64,000 nt of DNA, taken from contig JAUNBF010000011.1 of the NCBI GenBank assembly GCA_030527185.1, positions 1 to 64,000 on the forward strand. Reading direction: 5' to 3'. The stretch is from Planctomycetia bacterium. Its GTDB lineage: Bacteria; Planctomycetota; Planctomycetia; Pirellulales; Thermoguttaceae. Of the stretch, positions 41,857-51,722 are shown piece after piece. The notes below the pieces were generated by a model. The model worked only from the letters and a program-made list of their open reading frames with translations. It ran no database searches and was not told the origin of the DNA. The position numbers and the translations under genes are program-made. Position 1 is the stretch's first letter, and every line of letters starts with the position of its first letter.

Positions 41857-44745
41857 ATGAATCCTTACATGGATAAAAATTTGTGTCATAAAAATACGCT
41901 GCCGATCTCTTTGGAAGAAATGTCGGAGCATGGTTGGGATCAGGTCGATGTCGTTTTTGTGACAGGCGACGCGTATGTGGATCATCCGTCGTTTGCCGCG
42001 TCGCTTTTGGGACGGTGGCTGGAGGCTCACGGTATTCGCGTGGCGATTTTGTCGCAGCCGGACTGGAAATCGTGCGACGCGTGGCGAAAATTCGGGAAAC
42101 CGCGACTCTGTTTTGCGGTCAGTGCGGGAAATATGGACTCGATGGTGAATCACTATACCGCGAACCGCAAGATTCGGAACGTCGATGCGTACACGGCTGG
42201 CGGCAAGATTGGAATGCGACCGGATCGAGCAACGGCGGTTTATTGCCAACGTGCCCGCGAAGCGTTTCCGGGGGTGCCGGTGCTGGCCGGAGGGTTGGAG
42301 GCCAGTTTACGGCGGTTAGCACATTACGATTACTGGAGCGACAAGGTGCGACGTTCCGTTTTGCTCGATTCCAAGGCCGATTTGCTGCTTTTCGGGATGG
42401 GGGAATTGTCGTTGTTGGAGGTGATTCGTCGGCTGGACGCAGGGACGGCGGTGGAGGAAATTCGCGACATTCCCGGCACGGCGTATCGGCTTGGTGCGTC
42501 GGAATTTCTGGAAAAAGAGGGGGAGGAGTCGCGTATTCGCATGGAAGCTCTTCCCGAATCGGTGGTGATATTGCCGAGTGTGGAGGAGGTGCAGGCGGAA
42601 AAAGCGTCGTTTGCGGCCATGACGAAGCAGATTTACGACGAGCTGAATCCCTGGTCGGGACGGCCGTTGTTCCAGCAGTGCGGCACGGAGGCGGTGGTGG
42701 TGAATCCTCCCGGACGGCCCCTTTCCACGGAGGAGATGGACGCGATCTATTCGCTTCCGTTCACTCGCCGGGAACACCCTTCCTACGGCGAAGAAAAAGT
42801 CCCGGCATTGCAGATCGTCCAGGATTCGGTGCAGGCGGTTCGTGGCTGTTACGGCGGGTGCGCGTTCTGTGCGATTGCGGCTCACGAGGGGAAGCAGATT
42901 CAGTGCCGTTCGCAGGAATCGATCGTTTCGGAGATTGCAACGATTGCTTCCGACACGCATTTTTCCGGCACGATTACCGATATTGGCGGCCCGACGGCGA
43001 ACATGTACGGCACGGGCTGTACCAACGCGGAAGCGCGACGGGCTTGCAAACGGACGAGTTGTCTGTATCCTGAAGTCTGTGGGAATCTGGACACTTCGCA
43101 TGAAGCGTATCTGGGCGTTTTGCGGGCGGCACGTGGCGTTGCGAATGTCCGTAACGTCTTTATCGCGTCGGGAATTCGGACAGATTTGGCGCGGAAGAGT
43201 CCCGAATTTCTTCAGGAACTGGTCGAACACCACGTCGGTGGGCATTTGAAAGTCGCTCCTGAACACTCCGTGGCACGGGTTTTGGCCTGTATGCGAAAGC
43301 CGACGATCGACGATTTCGACGCCTTTACGGTGGAATTTGAGGAAGCGGCGGAAAAAGCGGAAAAAAATGTCTATACCGTGCCGTATTTCATTGCGTCGCA
43401 CCCGGGATGTGACCTGGAGGCGATGTTGGAATTGGCCGTTTACCTCCACAACAACGGGTATCGCCCGCAGCAGGTGCAGGATTATCTCCCCGCTCCGTTT
43501 GCGATTTCGACGTGCATGTACTACACCGGTCTCGACCCGATGACGGGAGAGGAAGTGTACGTTCCGCGAGGCGACCGGGAACGGCGTTTGCAGCGTGCGT
43601 TGTTGCAGTATTACAAGCCGGAAAACTATCATGCCGTGCGGGATGTTCTGGAGCGTCTGGGGCGGGAAGATTTGATGGGGGATGGGGTGGAATGCCTCAT
43701 CAGAAGTTATCCGCCCGCCGAAAATGGGGCAAAACCCGAACGTGCCCGTGCCGAAGGAGGAGGTTACCGCCAGCGCAGCCGGGAAGAAAACGCTCAGCGG
43801 GAACAGCGTGCCATGCAGCGAATCACCCAACGGGAACGATGGGGGCGGGAGCGAGATCGGGAGGAGAGCCCGGAAAAACGTTCCTCGGATCGATACGCCA
43901 AACGTCAGTTCAATCACCGACCGGAACGGCGTTGGGAAGACCGTCAGGAACGACGCTGGGACGACCGGCCACGGGAAGGACGGGAAGGACGGCGGGAAGA
44001 CCATCGTAACGATCATCGTCGGGATTTCCGCAACGACGACCGTCGGGAAGATCGTGGCGGGAATCGGGAATTTCGCCGGGAATCGCGGGGAGATTTTCGT
44101 CCCGACCATCGGCGAGACAACCGTCGTGACCATCGGGAAGGTGATCGTGGCGGACGTTGGGAAAATCGACGAGAGAATTATCGGGGAAATGACCGGGACA
44201 ATAATCGTGGAAATGACCGGGGGAACCGGTGGGAAAATCGGCGGGAGGAGAAGCCTTTTTCCAGAGATGACCGTCCGCCGCGTCGGAATTTCGACGACCG
44301 CCCGCCACGGCGTGAATGGCAGGAACGGCGACCTCGGCAAGACGATTCGGGAAATACCGACCGTCCGGCACCGCGTCAGTGGGATGCGGACAGCACCGAC
44401 CGACGGAGCGTTTCCACCTGGCGTCCGCGTCGTGAGGAACCGCGTCGGGAAGGATTTCGCCGGGATGACCGCCGGGATGACTCTCGCCGGGAGGGGCGTC
44501 GGGATGATTTTCGACGCAATGACCGACCGGATTTCCGGCAGCGACGTGGCGACGACTCCCGTTTTCGCTCTCGTGATGACCGCGACTCCAAGCCACGGGA
44601 ACGCTCCGATGACTGGAAACCACGGGAACGCTCCGGTGAGTGGAAGCCACGAGAACGTTCTGGTGAGTGGAAGCCACGGGAGAATCGTGACGGCTCCTTC
44701 CGCCGAAAAGATGGTTTTCGCGGCAAACGTTTTCCAGGTCGATAA
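41857..44745 (+). CDS. ygiQ: YgiQ-family radical SAM protein with long Arg/Asp-rich tail
   Basis: A 962-residue protein of the YgiQ/UPF0313 radical-SAM family, whose function is not settled. Residues 1-615 are the family core, with [33 protein letters not shown], the cluster motif C331-YGG-C335-AF-C338 and the substrate-side GHLKVAPEH. From about 618 to the end, roughly 340 residues are low-complexity Arg, Asp, Glu, Gly and Asn, with repeats of RRDDRRDD and [10 protein letters not shown]. coli YgiQ (739 residues) has a folded C-terminal domain instead. The tail resembles RNA-binding RD/RGG regions. AGAGGA precedes the ATG. Several long frames on other strands here are consequences of the repetitive tail. 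Confidence 0.9.
44590..44682 (+). repeat. 27-bp in-frame tandem repeat in the ygiQ tail
   Basis: Three 27-bp units plus a partial fourth encode [27 protein letters not shown] and KPRE (residues 912-942). Repeat number could change the tail length in frame. Confidence 0.85.
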
Positions 44746-47314: not shown

Positions 47315-48748
47315 ATGGTAGAAGATGTTAAGAAAACACGGCGAACGAAAAAAATAGCGACCGCAGCGGAGAATTTGCCGCAGCATGTCCCGCCGCACGA
47401 CCTCGATATGGAACGGGTGGTGCTGGGAAGCGTGATGCTCGACCCGGAAGTGTTCGACGACGTGGTAATGCTGCTTCGAGAGCAAGATTTTTATCTGGAA
47501 CAACACCAGATTCTCTTCCACGAAATGGAGGAACTCAGTCGTGCCAACCGTCAAATCGACGAGATGATTCTGATCAACCACCTGCGAAATGTAAAGAAAT
47601 TGCAGCAGGTTGGCGGGGTGGAATATCTGGCGGAAATCCTCCACAGCGCTCCCCATGCCGCTCATGCGAAAGCGTATGCGGAGATTCTGCGGGACAAGGC
47701 GAAATTGCGACAACTGATTCATGCCAGCAACGCGATTTTGCAGAGTGCCTACGAACCGGATGTGGAAATCGACAAACTCGTTTCGCAGGCGGAGGAAAAG
47801 ATTTTTGCGGTACACGACGAGCGTTCCAACGATTCCGTGGCCGATATTCACATGGTTTTGGATGAAGTCTGGACGAAAATCGATATTTTTTCGCGGGAAG
47901 GTGGTTCCGTGGGAATTCCGACCGGTTTTATCCGGCTGGACGAATTGACAGGCGGTCTGCACAATTCGGAATTGATTATTCTGGCCGCCCGCCCAAGTAT
48001 GGGAAAAACAGCGTTTGCCACAAACATTGCCGACTCGGTTGCCATTGCGCAGAATCGTGGCGTCCTGTTCGTCAGTCTGGAAATGGCACGTCAGGAACTC
48101 GTCATGCGCCTGCTCTGCGGAAGAGCCAAAGTGGACAGCCAGCAACTGCGTCGCGGTCGTCTTTCCCGGTCGGAGAAATCGAGCCTCCAGGAAGCCTCCA
48201 GTCAGATGATGGACGCTCCGTTTTTCATCGACGATTCCCCCAGCCGTACCGTTTCGGAAATTGCCGCCACCGCGCGCCGTCTGAAACGTCAGGGAAAGTT
48301 GTCGTTGATTATCATCGACTATTTGCAACTGATTAAAGAGGACAATTCCCGGGATTCACGTCAGGAACAGGTCTCCAAAATTGCCCGACGACTGAAAGGC
48401 CTGGCACGTGAGATGGACGTTCCGGTCATCTGCCTCTCCCAGTTGAACCGCCAGACCGAAGCGACGGGCGACCACCGTCCGAAATTGAGCCAACTCCGCG
48501 AATCAGGTGCGATTGAGCAGGATGCCGACGTGGTGATGTTCGTCCATCGGGAAGAATACTACCATGCCGGAGACCGGGATTACATCGAGAAAAAACAGTT
48601 GGCAGGCAAGGCGGAAATTATCATTGCGAAACAGCGTAACGGTCCGACCGATACCATCCCCCTGGCGTGGATTGCGAAACAGACCAAATTTGAGAATCTG
48701 GCTAGCCCGGTGTATCAAGACCTGGAAGAATTTAGTGAGTATGAATAG
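47315..48748 (+). CDS. dnaB: Replicative DNA helicase
   Basis: DnaB is the hexameric 5'-3' helicase of the replication fork. The 477 residues carry the N-terminal collar domain (about 25-130), a linker, and the RecA-like motor with Walker A RPSMGKT (226-232), the H1a Glu in LEMAR, Walker B LIIIDYLQL and the QL-type LSQLNRQ stretch. No intein is present. The ATG follows GAGGAAGGGG, whose 5' half is the last GGTTGAG repeat unit. The gene is convergent with the YkgJ-type gene 27 bases away. Confidence 0.96.
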   Translation: MVEDVKKTRRTKKIATAAENLPQHVPPHDLDMERVVLGSVMLDPEVFDDVVMLLREQDFYLEQHQILFHEMEELSRANRQIDEMILINHLRNVKKLQQVGGVEYLAEILHSAPHAAHAKAYAEILRDKAKLRQLIHASNAILQSAYEPDVEIDKLVSQAEEKIFAVHDERSNDSVADIHMVLDEVWTKIDIFSREGGSVGIPTGFIRLDELTGGLHNSELIILAARPSMGKTAFATNIADSVAIAQNRGVLFVSLEMARQELVMRLLCGRAKVDSQQLRRGRLSRSEKSSLQEASSQMMDAPFFIDDSPSRTVSEIAATARRLKRQGKLSLIIIDYLQLIKEDNSRDSRQEQVSKIARRLKGLAREMDVPVICLSQLNRQTEATGDHRPKLSQLRESGAIEQDADVVMFVHREEYYHAGDRDYIEKKQLAGKAEIIIAKQRNGPTDTIPLAWIAKQTKFENLASPVYQDLEEFSEYE

Positions 48749-48775
48749 AAAAAAGGCTTTCCTGGCCATGAAAAT

Positions 48776-49195
48776 TCACATTTTCCGCAAACCTTTGCGT
48801 TTTTGAATCTCTTCCAGTGGTACCACCGCCCCACGATTGCACCCCTTGCAGGAACGGGAGATTTTCTCCCATTCCTCCAGGTTTTCCAGATTGGAACTCC
48901 AAAAAGGCCAGGTGCGGCACTGAATCGGACGTTCTTCATAAACTTTGCAGCGTCGCTGGAAGCGGTCGAAAAAAATGCAGTCGCCATTCGGCAATTCGAT
49001 CAGACTCTTCCGCCGTCCCACCTTTTTGACGAAACGGTTTTCAAAAGCCTCAAAATCGATTCCCAAACGGTCTGCCAGATGTAAAATTTCCTCCTCGGAA
49101 ACCCAGATATACCCCGGTTCCCCGGTACAACAACAACCACATTCCTGGCACTCAAACGCCAGCCCGGCTTCGTACCAGACCTTTTCTTCATCCAT
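48776..49195 (-). CDS. YkgJ-family zinc/iron-chelating cysteine-cluster protein
   Basis: A 139-residue protein of the CxxCxxCC (YkgJ) family, thought to bind zinc or iron-sulfur. Cysteines lie at 16, 19, 21, 22 and 23 (CQECGCCC), then C73, C83, C93, C116 and C119. Motifs NGDCIFFD and RPIQCRTWPFW are typical. ATG 49195 is chosen because AAAGGGGAG lies 4 bases upstream; a longer frame to 49267 overlaps the preceding gene. It follows the LexA-like gene by 23 bases, so the two share a transcript. The molecular role of this family is not known. Confidence 0.88.
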   Translation of the reverse strand: MDEEKVWYEAGLAFECQECGCCCTGEPGYIWVSEEEILHLADRLGIDFEAFENRFVKKVGRRKSLIELPNGDCIFFDRFQRRCKVYEERPIQCRTWPFWSSNLENLEEWEKISRSCKGCNRGAVVPLEEIQKRKGLRKM

Positions 49196-49218
49196 TTTCT
49201 CTCCCCTTTCCTCCGAAA

Positions 49219-49857
49219 TTACTCTATCGGCACCACCCAGCCTTTCACAATTCCGAGAAATGTCCACTTCTTCCAGTCAAAATAAAGTTTCGCGTCTCCT
49301 CTCCGCTGGATGGCATAACGTTTCGTTGCGGAATGATAAATGCACGTTCCAAGAATCAGCTCTTTTTTCGGTGTCATCCAGGCCAGTCTTCGATTTTCCT
49401 CCACGATGGGAGAGGCATGCAAAAGAAGCGAATAACCTTTCTGAACGCGCGAACAGGAAGGAGGTGCCTCTTCCACGTAAAGAGAAAGATAGGGATAAAA
49501 GGAGCCTTTGGAAAATTGTTGTCGACCGGAATACTCCTCCGAAAGCGTGACCGTATTTCCCCGTATCGTCCCCAACCGAGGTATTTCATCATAACTCTTC
49601 GTCGATTTTCGCTTCAAAAGGGTAATGGCTCGCGAACAGTTGGGAATCCGTTTCAGATACCCTTTTCTTTCCAGTGCATCCAGGTGAGTACGAACGCCAT
49701 AGGAGGAATGAATTTTCAAGTGCTGCGCAATTTCCCGATAAGAAGGACAAATTCCCTGTCCTGAAATACAACGGGAAAGATAACGCCAGACCTCTAATTG
49801 CCGTGGTGTGAGAGATGGTAAAGAATCGAAATTTGAATGTTGTTGACGGCTTTTCAT
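49219..49857 (-). CDS. LexA-like repressor lacking the self-cleavage residues
   Basis: A 212-residue protein. Residues 16-81 match the LexA winged-helix DNA-binding domain (LTPRQLEVWRYL, PSYREIAQHL, SRAITLL). The C-terminal part follows the LexA peptidase-dimerisation fold (IPRLGTIRG onward, ending FLGIVKGWVVP) but its chemistry is gone. The Ala-Gly cleavage pair is Arg99-Gly100. The nucleophile motif G-S/M-S-M is replaced by EEAPPSCS at 129-136. The general-base Lys in VKR is Gln184 in AIQRR. It should therefore bind DNA and dimerise without RecA-driven cleavage. AGGAGGA lies 7 bases upstream. It is co-directional with the YkgJ-type gene. Confidence 0.75.
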   Translation of the reverse strand: MKSRQQHSNFDSLPSLTPRQLEVWRYLSRCISGQGICPSYREIAQHLKIHSSYGVRTHLDALERKGYLKRIPNCSRAITLLKRKSTKSYDEIPRLGTIRGNTVTLSEEYSGRQQFSKGSFYPYLSLYVEEAPPSCSRVQKGYSLLLHASPIVEENRRLAWMTPKKELILGTCIYHSATKRYAIQRRGDAKLYFDWKKWTFLGIVKGWVVPIE

Positions 49858-50480
49858 GGATCATTCCTCCTAAAAATACATTCTAACAATAAAACATAAC
49901 CTGCTCCACTCCAGAAACTCCGCGCCTTTTCCTAAATTTCGTGCCAGGCAAAAGTCCTCAGAAATGGGAGGTTCCCTTTTTATACCACTTCCCTTAAAAA
50001 TAATGGTAGGGATTGGTAATCCTTTCAGAGAAGTTCCTTCCGAAAAATTATCTCATGGCACCTCCCTTCTGGCAATAAAAACGAAAAAAATTCTTAAAGC
50101 CAGTAGGATGATACCATGAAATGTTTCTTTCGACGAATTCTATCTTTAGTATAACCTATTTTCAGTGGAAAAATGTTTTCTCTTTGGTTTTTTTAACCTA
50201 TTTTTTGCATTTCTGTCCATTACAAAAGTTAAATCGCGAAAAGTTGATGTAACGATAAACTTCTTCATGTTTTGCAAGCCTCTCCCAATCGATTTATCTT
50301 CTATTGTATTTTCCACATGCCTCCTATTTTTACACTCCTTCAAAAAAGTTCCCCTCAAAATCTCTGTCCGGGGTAGAAAAAATATTTTTTTGATATATAA
50401 TGGAAGTTATTATCGTAAAATATTGAAAAATCGCCTGCCGCGAAAAAAATACCCTTTTCCTTTTTACGGATTCCTGTCCC
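49858..50480. other. 623-bp AT-rich intergenic region
   Basis: The divergent gap between the LexA-like gene and the export ATPase. It has no ORF with a ribosome site. A TATAAT at 50396-50401 (+) may serve the polysaccharide operon, but no fitting -35 box is seen. The composition break begins here. Confidence 0.5.
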
Positions 50481-51722
50481 ATGTCCGAAATTGCCGTCCA
50501 AGTCGATCATGTCTGGAAACGTTTTCACAAAGGGGAATTTCACGATTCCCTGCGAGACGCCATCCCCGCCTTTTTCAAATCACTCGTCGGCAAAACCAAC
50601 CAGCAAGACCTCGGTAAAGGAGATTTCTGGGCACTGAAAGATATTTCCTTTGAAGTCAAAAAAGGAGAATCCTTCGGAATTATCGGCCATAACGGGGCGG
50701 GCAAAAGCACCTTGCTGAAACTCCTCTCCCGAATCATCCGTCCCAACCGCGGCAACATCCGCATGGAAGGCCGGCTCGGGACGCTCATCGAAATCGGGGC
50801 GGGTTTTCATGGCGATCTCACCGGCCGCGAAAACATCTACCTCAACGGCACGATTCTCGGCATGAAAAAAGCGGAAATCGACCGCAAGTTTGACGAAATC
50901 GTCGACTTTTCCGGCATTGAAGACTTCCTCGACACCCCAGTCAAACGCTACTCCTCCGGCATGCACGCCCGCCTCGGCTTTGCCGTCGCCGCCCACCTCG
51001 AACCCGACATCCTCATCGTCGACGAAGTCCTCTCCGTCGGCGATACCGCCTTCCAGAAAAAATGCCTGGGGAAAATGAACGAAGTCACTCGGGAAGGAAG
51101 AACCGTGTTGTTCGTCAGTCATAATATGGGTGCGGTGAAAAATTTGTGTCAACGAGCGATTTTGCTTCAAAAGGGGGAGAAGAAGGGGGATGGTCGGGCA
51201 GACGAGGTGATACATGGATACCTGCAATCTGTTGGCAATCCTTCGACAGACCTGACGAGTCGAAAATCGTACGATGGTTCTGGTGAAGTTCGATTTACAA
51301 AGTTCCTGTTACGGGGACTTCAAACTCGAACAAATATTGTTGGTTTGGGCGAGGGGGTTCGTATTGAGCTACATTTTCACGTGAATAAACCTGTAGAAGA
51401 TTTTGAATTGTACATCAGCGTTTGGGACGAAAACGACATCAACATACTCCAATTCAACAGTCGTGACGTCCCGCAGCCGATCAAACGATTGGATCGCGAT
51501 GGTTGTTTCTGCTTTGAGACGCAAATGTTGCCTTTAGCACCGAGAAACTATCGTATTTCCGCGTTGATTATGGATGGGCGGGGCGCAATAGATCGTGTTC
51601 TTCACATAGATGATCTCACGGTGGAGGGAAAACGATTCGGGAAAAATGTTTTACTTCGTGCGCCTTATTCACCTCGATGTCTGACGGACTTTTCATTTCA
51701 CGTAACCGAGGCGACCGAATGA
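50481..51722 (+). CDS. Wzt-like polysaccharide export ABC transporter ATPase
   Basis: A 413-residue ATPase that would drive export of a lipid-linked polysaccharide. Walker A GHNGAGKS (69-76), signature YSSGM (157-161) and Walker B DILIVDE (176-182) are present. Residues about 270-400 form a Wzt-type beta-sandwich carbohydrate-binding domain that recognises the chain end. No Wzm permease gene lies nearby, which is unusual, as the two are normally adjacent. Codon use changes from C-ending codons to A/T-ending ones around 51100, inside the gene, so the 5' and 3' halves may have different histories. No ribosome site is visible. The stop overlaps the next start. Confidence 0.88.
   Translation: MSEIAVQVDHVWKRFHKGEFHDSLRDAIPAFFKSLVGKTNQQDLGKGDFWALKDISFEVKKGESFGIIGHNGAGKSTLLKLLSRIIRPNRGNIRMEGRLGTLIEIGAGFHGDLTGRENIYLNGTILGMKKAEIDRKFDEIVDFSGIEDFLDTPVKRYSSGMHARLGFAVAAHLEPDILIVDEVLSVGDTAFQKKCLGKMNEVTREGRTVLFVSHNMGAVKNLCQRAILLQKGEKKGDGRADEVIHGYLQSVGNPSTDLTSRKSYDGSGEVRFTKFLLRGLQTRTNIVGLGEGVRIELHFHVNKPVEDFELYISVWDENDINILQFNSRDVPQPIKRLDRDGCFCFETQMLPLAPRNYRISALIMDGRGAIDRVLHIDDLTVEGKRFGKNVLLRAPYSPRCLTDFSFHVTEATE

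Follow-up and report, generated by a model that had tools for sequence, protein, structure and literature searches.

RecA-stimulated cleavage of LexA and its relatives requires a Ser-Lys pair. A stretch of 64,000 nucleotides from a Planctomycetia bacterium (the window; contig JAUNBF010000011.1, positions 1 to 64,000) features a gene for a LexA-like protein that a first-pass annotation described as lacking this self-cleavage dyad. The locus raises the question of whether the protein can still act as an SOS repressor and, if it cannot, what a LexA scaffold without its proteolytic switch is used for. The window genome is a gut Thermoguttaceae MAG of 174 contigs that is 91% complete, and its sister genomes are Thermoguttaceae from goat and water-deer gut.

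Gene and Neighborhood

The lexA-like gene is located at 49219..49857 on the minus strand, where the reading frame is intact from ATG to stop over 212 codons. The 212-residue product matches PF01726, does not match PF00717, and has a LexA fold according to AlphaFold2 (AF2) models and Foldseek. A CxxCxxCC protein of 139 residues (PF03692, 47.5 bits) is encoded 23 bp downstream at 48776..49195 (minus strand), and the two genes are probably co-transcribed. The dnaB gene is convergent to the lexA-like gene. On the other side a divergent, AT-rich gap of 623 bp (49858..50480, 35% GC) leads to a Wzt-type ABC transporter gene (50481 onward), which opens a glycan locus. The gap contains no canonical LexA box and no clear operator palindrome; a palindrome search found AT-rich chance-like repeats only, and an Rfam scan of 48500-51000 gave no match. 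A promoter-like element, TTGCCA-17-(TG)GATAAT, lies upstream of the lexA-like gene at 50047..50075 (minus strand) by consensus scan only, and its use would predict a leader of ~180 nt. A PHROGs search produced matches confined to the DNA-binding domain of the protein, and a defence library search produced none. Elsewhere in the window, 41857-44745 (plus strand) encodes a radical SAM protein (PF08497, PF11842) whose long C-terminal tail, some 300 residues of low complexity, is rich in Arg, Asp, and Glu.

Cleavage Site and C-Terminal Domain

The positions of the cleavage site and of the catalytic residues were read from 157 aligned LexA-like rows, drawn from the window genome, its relatives, and named planctomycete genomes. 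Ala-Gly, Ser, and Lys are present in 125 of these rows, none of which is the window protein. The Ala-Gly site is replaced by Arg99-Gly100-Asn101 (TIRGNT) in the segment GTIRGNT, residues 96-102 (49552..49572, minus strand, by alignment and numbering), in agreement with the Arg-Gly reported by the first-pass annotation. The EEAPPSCS motif at the position of the nucleophile (49450..49473, minus strand) was also assigned correctly, and its Ser column is occupied by Pro132. The substitution of the catalytic Lys by Gln184 was a misalignment: the Lys column is Gly170 in LILGTC (49342..49359, minus strand), and Gln184 is 14 residues further on. This error does not affect the conclusion that the dyad is absent. 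By alignment, the residues required for RecA-stimulated self-cleavage are missing from the window protein, and autocleavage is almost certainly gone.

Residues 82-212 (49222..49614, minus strand) form a degenerate former S24/dimerisation domain, as described by profile scores, codon-position differences, and AF2 models. A search of the window protein for Peptidase_S24 (PF00717) found nothing at E up to 1. A profile built from canonical LexA proteins only does not recognise the domain, as 49 of 500 shuffled sequences do equally well. The domain scores 10.9 bits with a profile of genus members that leaves out both proteins of the window's own genome, and the best of 500 shuffles reaches 2.7. AlphaFold models from two alignments, the second without any canonical LexA, have pLDDT values of 86.5 and 81.9, with the C-domain mostly at pLDDT 80-94, and the best PDB matches of both models in Foldseek are LexA. 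The C-terminal domain is modelled as a LexA fold in which the dyad columns are lost; the placement of the two domains relative to each other is uncertain (pTM 0.55-0.59).

LexA-Like Proteins and SOS Genes in the Same Genome

The genome encodes two LexA-like proteins, the window protein and a paralogue on contig 73 (C73:5422-6066) that is 40% identical to it. The paralogue has the cleavage site KICENR, Ala in the Ser column, and Gly in the Lys column. The two proteins are sisters in the tree with support of 100/93, and the long branches make finer placement unsafe. A third LexA_DNA_bind match (C168, 23.9 bits) was rejected, as its sequence looks more like a DtxR/MntR-type regulator than a LexA. 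No second, intact LexA was found in the genome, the sole other LexA-like protein being likewise without the dyad, and a Peptidase_S24 search of the 91% complete assembly at E up to 0.001 gave no match. An intact LexA could be missing from the assembly because the genome is an incomplete MAG. The genome has recA and a gene for a UmuC-type polymerase; umuD was not found in the assembly. An IS5-type transposase-like gene is located directly upstream of the UmuC-type gene (G000:C2:1-3396).

DNA-Binding Domain and Operators

The first-pass annotation of a good LexA DNA-binding domain is borne out by the match of residues 14-76 (49627..49815, minus strand) to PF01726 (LexA_DNA_bind; 67.5 bits, 8.9e-19, cut-off 23.7). 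The lexA equivalog model TIGR00498 gives 69.8 bits, which is below its cut-off of 110.95, and matches residues 14-106 only. The recognition helix is SSYGVRTHL, residues 51-59 (49681..49707, minus strand, by alignment column counts and numbering), and it features Tyr53 at a position that is Asn in 122 of 122 canonical rows. Since this Asn is present in every canonical row, the DNA binding of the window protein could be altered or weak. The combination of a duplicate pair and an Asn to Tyr53 change in the recognition helix suggests that the two paralogues may now read different operators.

Canonical lexA genes are preceded by a LexA box, TTGACTrTGTACAnnCGTATATTGTACTAT, in 88 of 130 cases. The box is probably autoregulatory in Pirellulales; a literature search on it found no paper. 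A strong box overlaps the promoter of canonical Pirellulales lexA genes, for example, L063, L065, and L033. The box was found upstream of none of the 13 lexA-like genes of the window's genus, g1 (best score for the window gene, -13.7), and its core, with up to two mismatches allowed, is in none of the eight g1 genomes. The core is found in 27 of the 60 genomes searched, none of them g1, with many of the listed sites at lexA itself. A search of the window's own genome for operators of either paralogue found none, and an arbitrary exact pattern had no match there. A 24-nt leader motif thought to be common to the window gene and the paralogue on contig 73 was rejected: with two mismatches allowed, the only site in the genome is the window's own.

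Distribution in the Genus and Family

LexA-like proteins were found in six of the eight g1 genomes, and no LexA was found in the other two. All 13 aligned LexA-like proteins from these six genomes have lost both Ala-Gly and the catalytic Lys, and several of the proteins retain Ser. A recA gene and a Y-family polymerase gene were found in all eight. Across most of the family and of the order LexA is canonical, and a scan of 119 genomes of the family gave full-length LexA matches in 28 genera by hand tally, those read being canonical. Genera g20, g25, and g9 and most of g29 and g63 have UmuD-like matches only. Genera g19 and g21 and one g63 genome have LexA-like proteins in which at least one of the features is missing; in g21 the register of the Lys is ambiguous. 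Incomplete assemblies could account for isolated absences, but the overall pattern less easily.

The UmuD-type S24 proteins of gut Thermoguttaceae (L050-L055, from sister genera and genus relatives) feature a basic N-terminal extension, GGKRKGAGRPKGTGKFG..., that is unrecognised by Pfam. An example is encoded at L052:1477-1995 (minus strand), and a UmuD-type protein of a sister species has the N-terminus GGKRKGAGRPKG. In genomes without LexA these proteins are candidates for a damage-sensing regulator. Apparently separate losses of catalytic residues are seen elsewhere in Planctomycetota in L161 (Rhodopirellula maiorica), L160 (uncultured Schlesneria), L009, and L187. The R. maiorica LexA has SALAFW in place of ATLKRW, and a LexA-box-like site is still seen.

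Divergence of the Two Domains

In a conserved group of the genus, the DNA-binding domain is 7% diverged versus 49% for the C-terminal domain, with a median ratio of 5.3, and the corresponding ratio for canonical LexA pairs is 1.28. Canonical pairs matched for divergence of the DNA-binding domain have a median C-terminal divergence of 0.19 and a maximum of 0.38. Nei-Gojobori dN values for the conserved genus group are 0.05-0.10 in the DNA-binding domain versus 0.22-0.42 in the C-terminal domain, with dS saturated. The drift of the C-terminal domain far exceeds that of the DNA-binding domain, and therefore DNA binding appears to be under selection and the switch domain relaxed. Between the window protein and its contig-73 sister, the DNA-binding domain differs by 0.37/0.30/0.62 at codon positions 1/2/3 and the C-terminal domain by 0.53/0.47/0.64. 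The excess of third- over second-position change in both domains argues weakly against a dead gene.

Proposed Function and Alternatives

The best reading, and a probable one, is that the window protein is a DNA-binding, dimeric, RecA-independent repressor derived from LexA. The winged-helix domain and the LexA-type dimerisation domain would still fold, self-cleavage would be lost, and the protein would probably bind its operators as a dimer. DNA damage signalled through RecA would leave it in place, and its output would depend on how much of it is present or on a non-RecA input such as a ligand, a modification, or a partner protein. Dimerisation, DNA binding, and repression are inferred. The non-SOS repressor proposed by the first-pass annotation is a reasonable inference that is strengthened by the loss of the ancestral operator.

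The main rival, which is considered unlikely, holds that the gene is a decaying relic without present function, a copy being lost from gut Thermoguttaceae. Two genomes of the genus and several sister genera have no LexA and only UmuD-like proteins, the C-terminal domain drifts fast, the recognition helix has changed from Asn to Tyr, and the codon-position GC signal is weak. Against a relic stand the two full-length intact copies within one genome, the excess of third- over second-position change in both domains, and the retained DNA-binding domain, which is nearly unchanged in the conserved genus group. Far less probable is a protein that continues to act as an SOS repressor, with RecA inactivating it by way of a rearranged active site (such as Ser134 or Ser136 paired with Lys164 or Lys165) or another S24 protein cutting it in trans. 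Such Ser and Lys residues do lie 2-6 positions from the lost ones, and intact UmuD-type S24 proteins occur in relatives within the genus; however, the cleavage site is gone too, the four candidate residues are not conserved in the sister protein, no S24 protein was found in the own genome, and the ancestral operator is lost.

A narrower form of the preferred repressor reading, in which the protein represses the adjacent glycan locus across the gap and is released by the CxxCxxCC partner or a ligand, is improbable. It draws on the adjacency and divergent arrangement of the locus, on the Wzt-like ABC protein, and on the 23-bp spacing to the PF03692 gene. Against it, the gap is without a LexA-type palindrome, the neighborhoods of the paralogues are not conserved, and the PF03692 neighbor is seen with no other LexA-like gene of the genus. 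No PF03692 homologue was found near other LexA-like genes in the fetched loci, and the CxxCxxCC protein was rejected as a conserved partner. The earlier proposal of release by the co-transcribed Cys-cluster protein is not supported, as the only link is the 23-bp spacing. For control of the glycan locus the evidence is adjacency, next to a gap without a clear LexA-like operator.

The LexA pair is almost certainly non-cleavable, a change found across the genus, and LexA-type genes would therefore have to be switched some other way. There is about an even chance that, once the LexA box had been lost in this gut planctomycete genus, LexA became a small family of repressors that cannot be cleaved, whose switch domains drift and whose recognition helices diverge, while recA and the Y-family polymerase were kept. 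The SOS genes would then be expressed constitutively or answer to a different regulator, for which the UmuD-type S24 proteins of sister species, with their basic N-terminal extension, are one possibility. Canonical relatives, intermediates in which Ser is kept and Lys is gone, and sister genera that seem to have lost LexA altogether form a natural series for decay versus re-use of a proteolytic stress switch, which bears on how gut bacteria without the LexA switch control DNA-damage genes.

Comparison with Known Systems

Canonical Pirellulales LexA (for example, L012 and L063) is the parent family, and it has the winged-helix domain, the architecture, and the predicted fold in common with the window protein. 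The canonical proteins feature Ala-Gly, the GDSM Ser, the ATLKRW Lys, and mostly a LexA box at their own promoter, all of which are absent from the window protein and its gene. UmuDAb of Acinetobacter (PMC11332147) belongs to a lineage without LexA in which DNA-damage control has been rewired. UmuDAb keeps autocleavage, whereas the window protein has lost cleavage and keeps the LexA DNA-binding domain. A non-cleavable form of UmuDAb retains nearly wild-type DNA binding (PMC11332147). Non-cleavable LexA is represented in the literature searched by one cyanobacterium, Synechocystis, and a loss of this kind is followed here across a genus. The LexA of Synechocystis PCC 6803, in which Ala-Gly and the catalytic Ser are absent, is believed not to govern SOS (PMC3091678, PMC7567884). 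It resembles the window protein as a LexA scaffold without these features and, by analogy, may serve as its functional precedent. In contrast to Synechocystis LexA, the window protein is also without Lys, is duplicated, and has a strongly diverged C-terminal domain, and the loss is genus-wide and in another phylum, presumably independent of the Synechocystis event.
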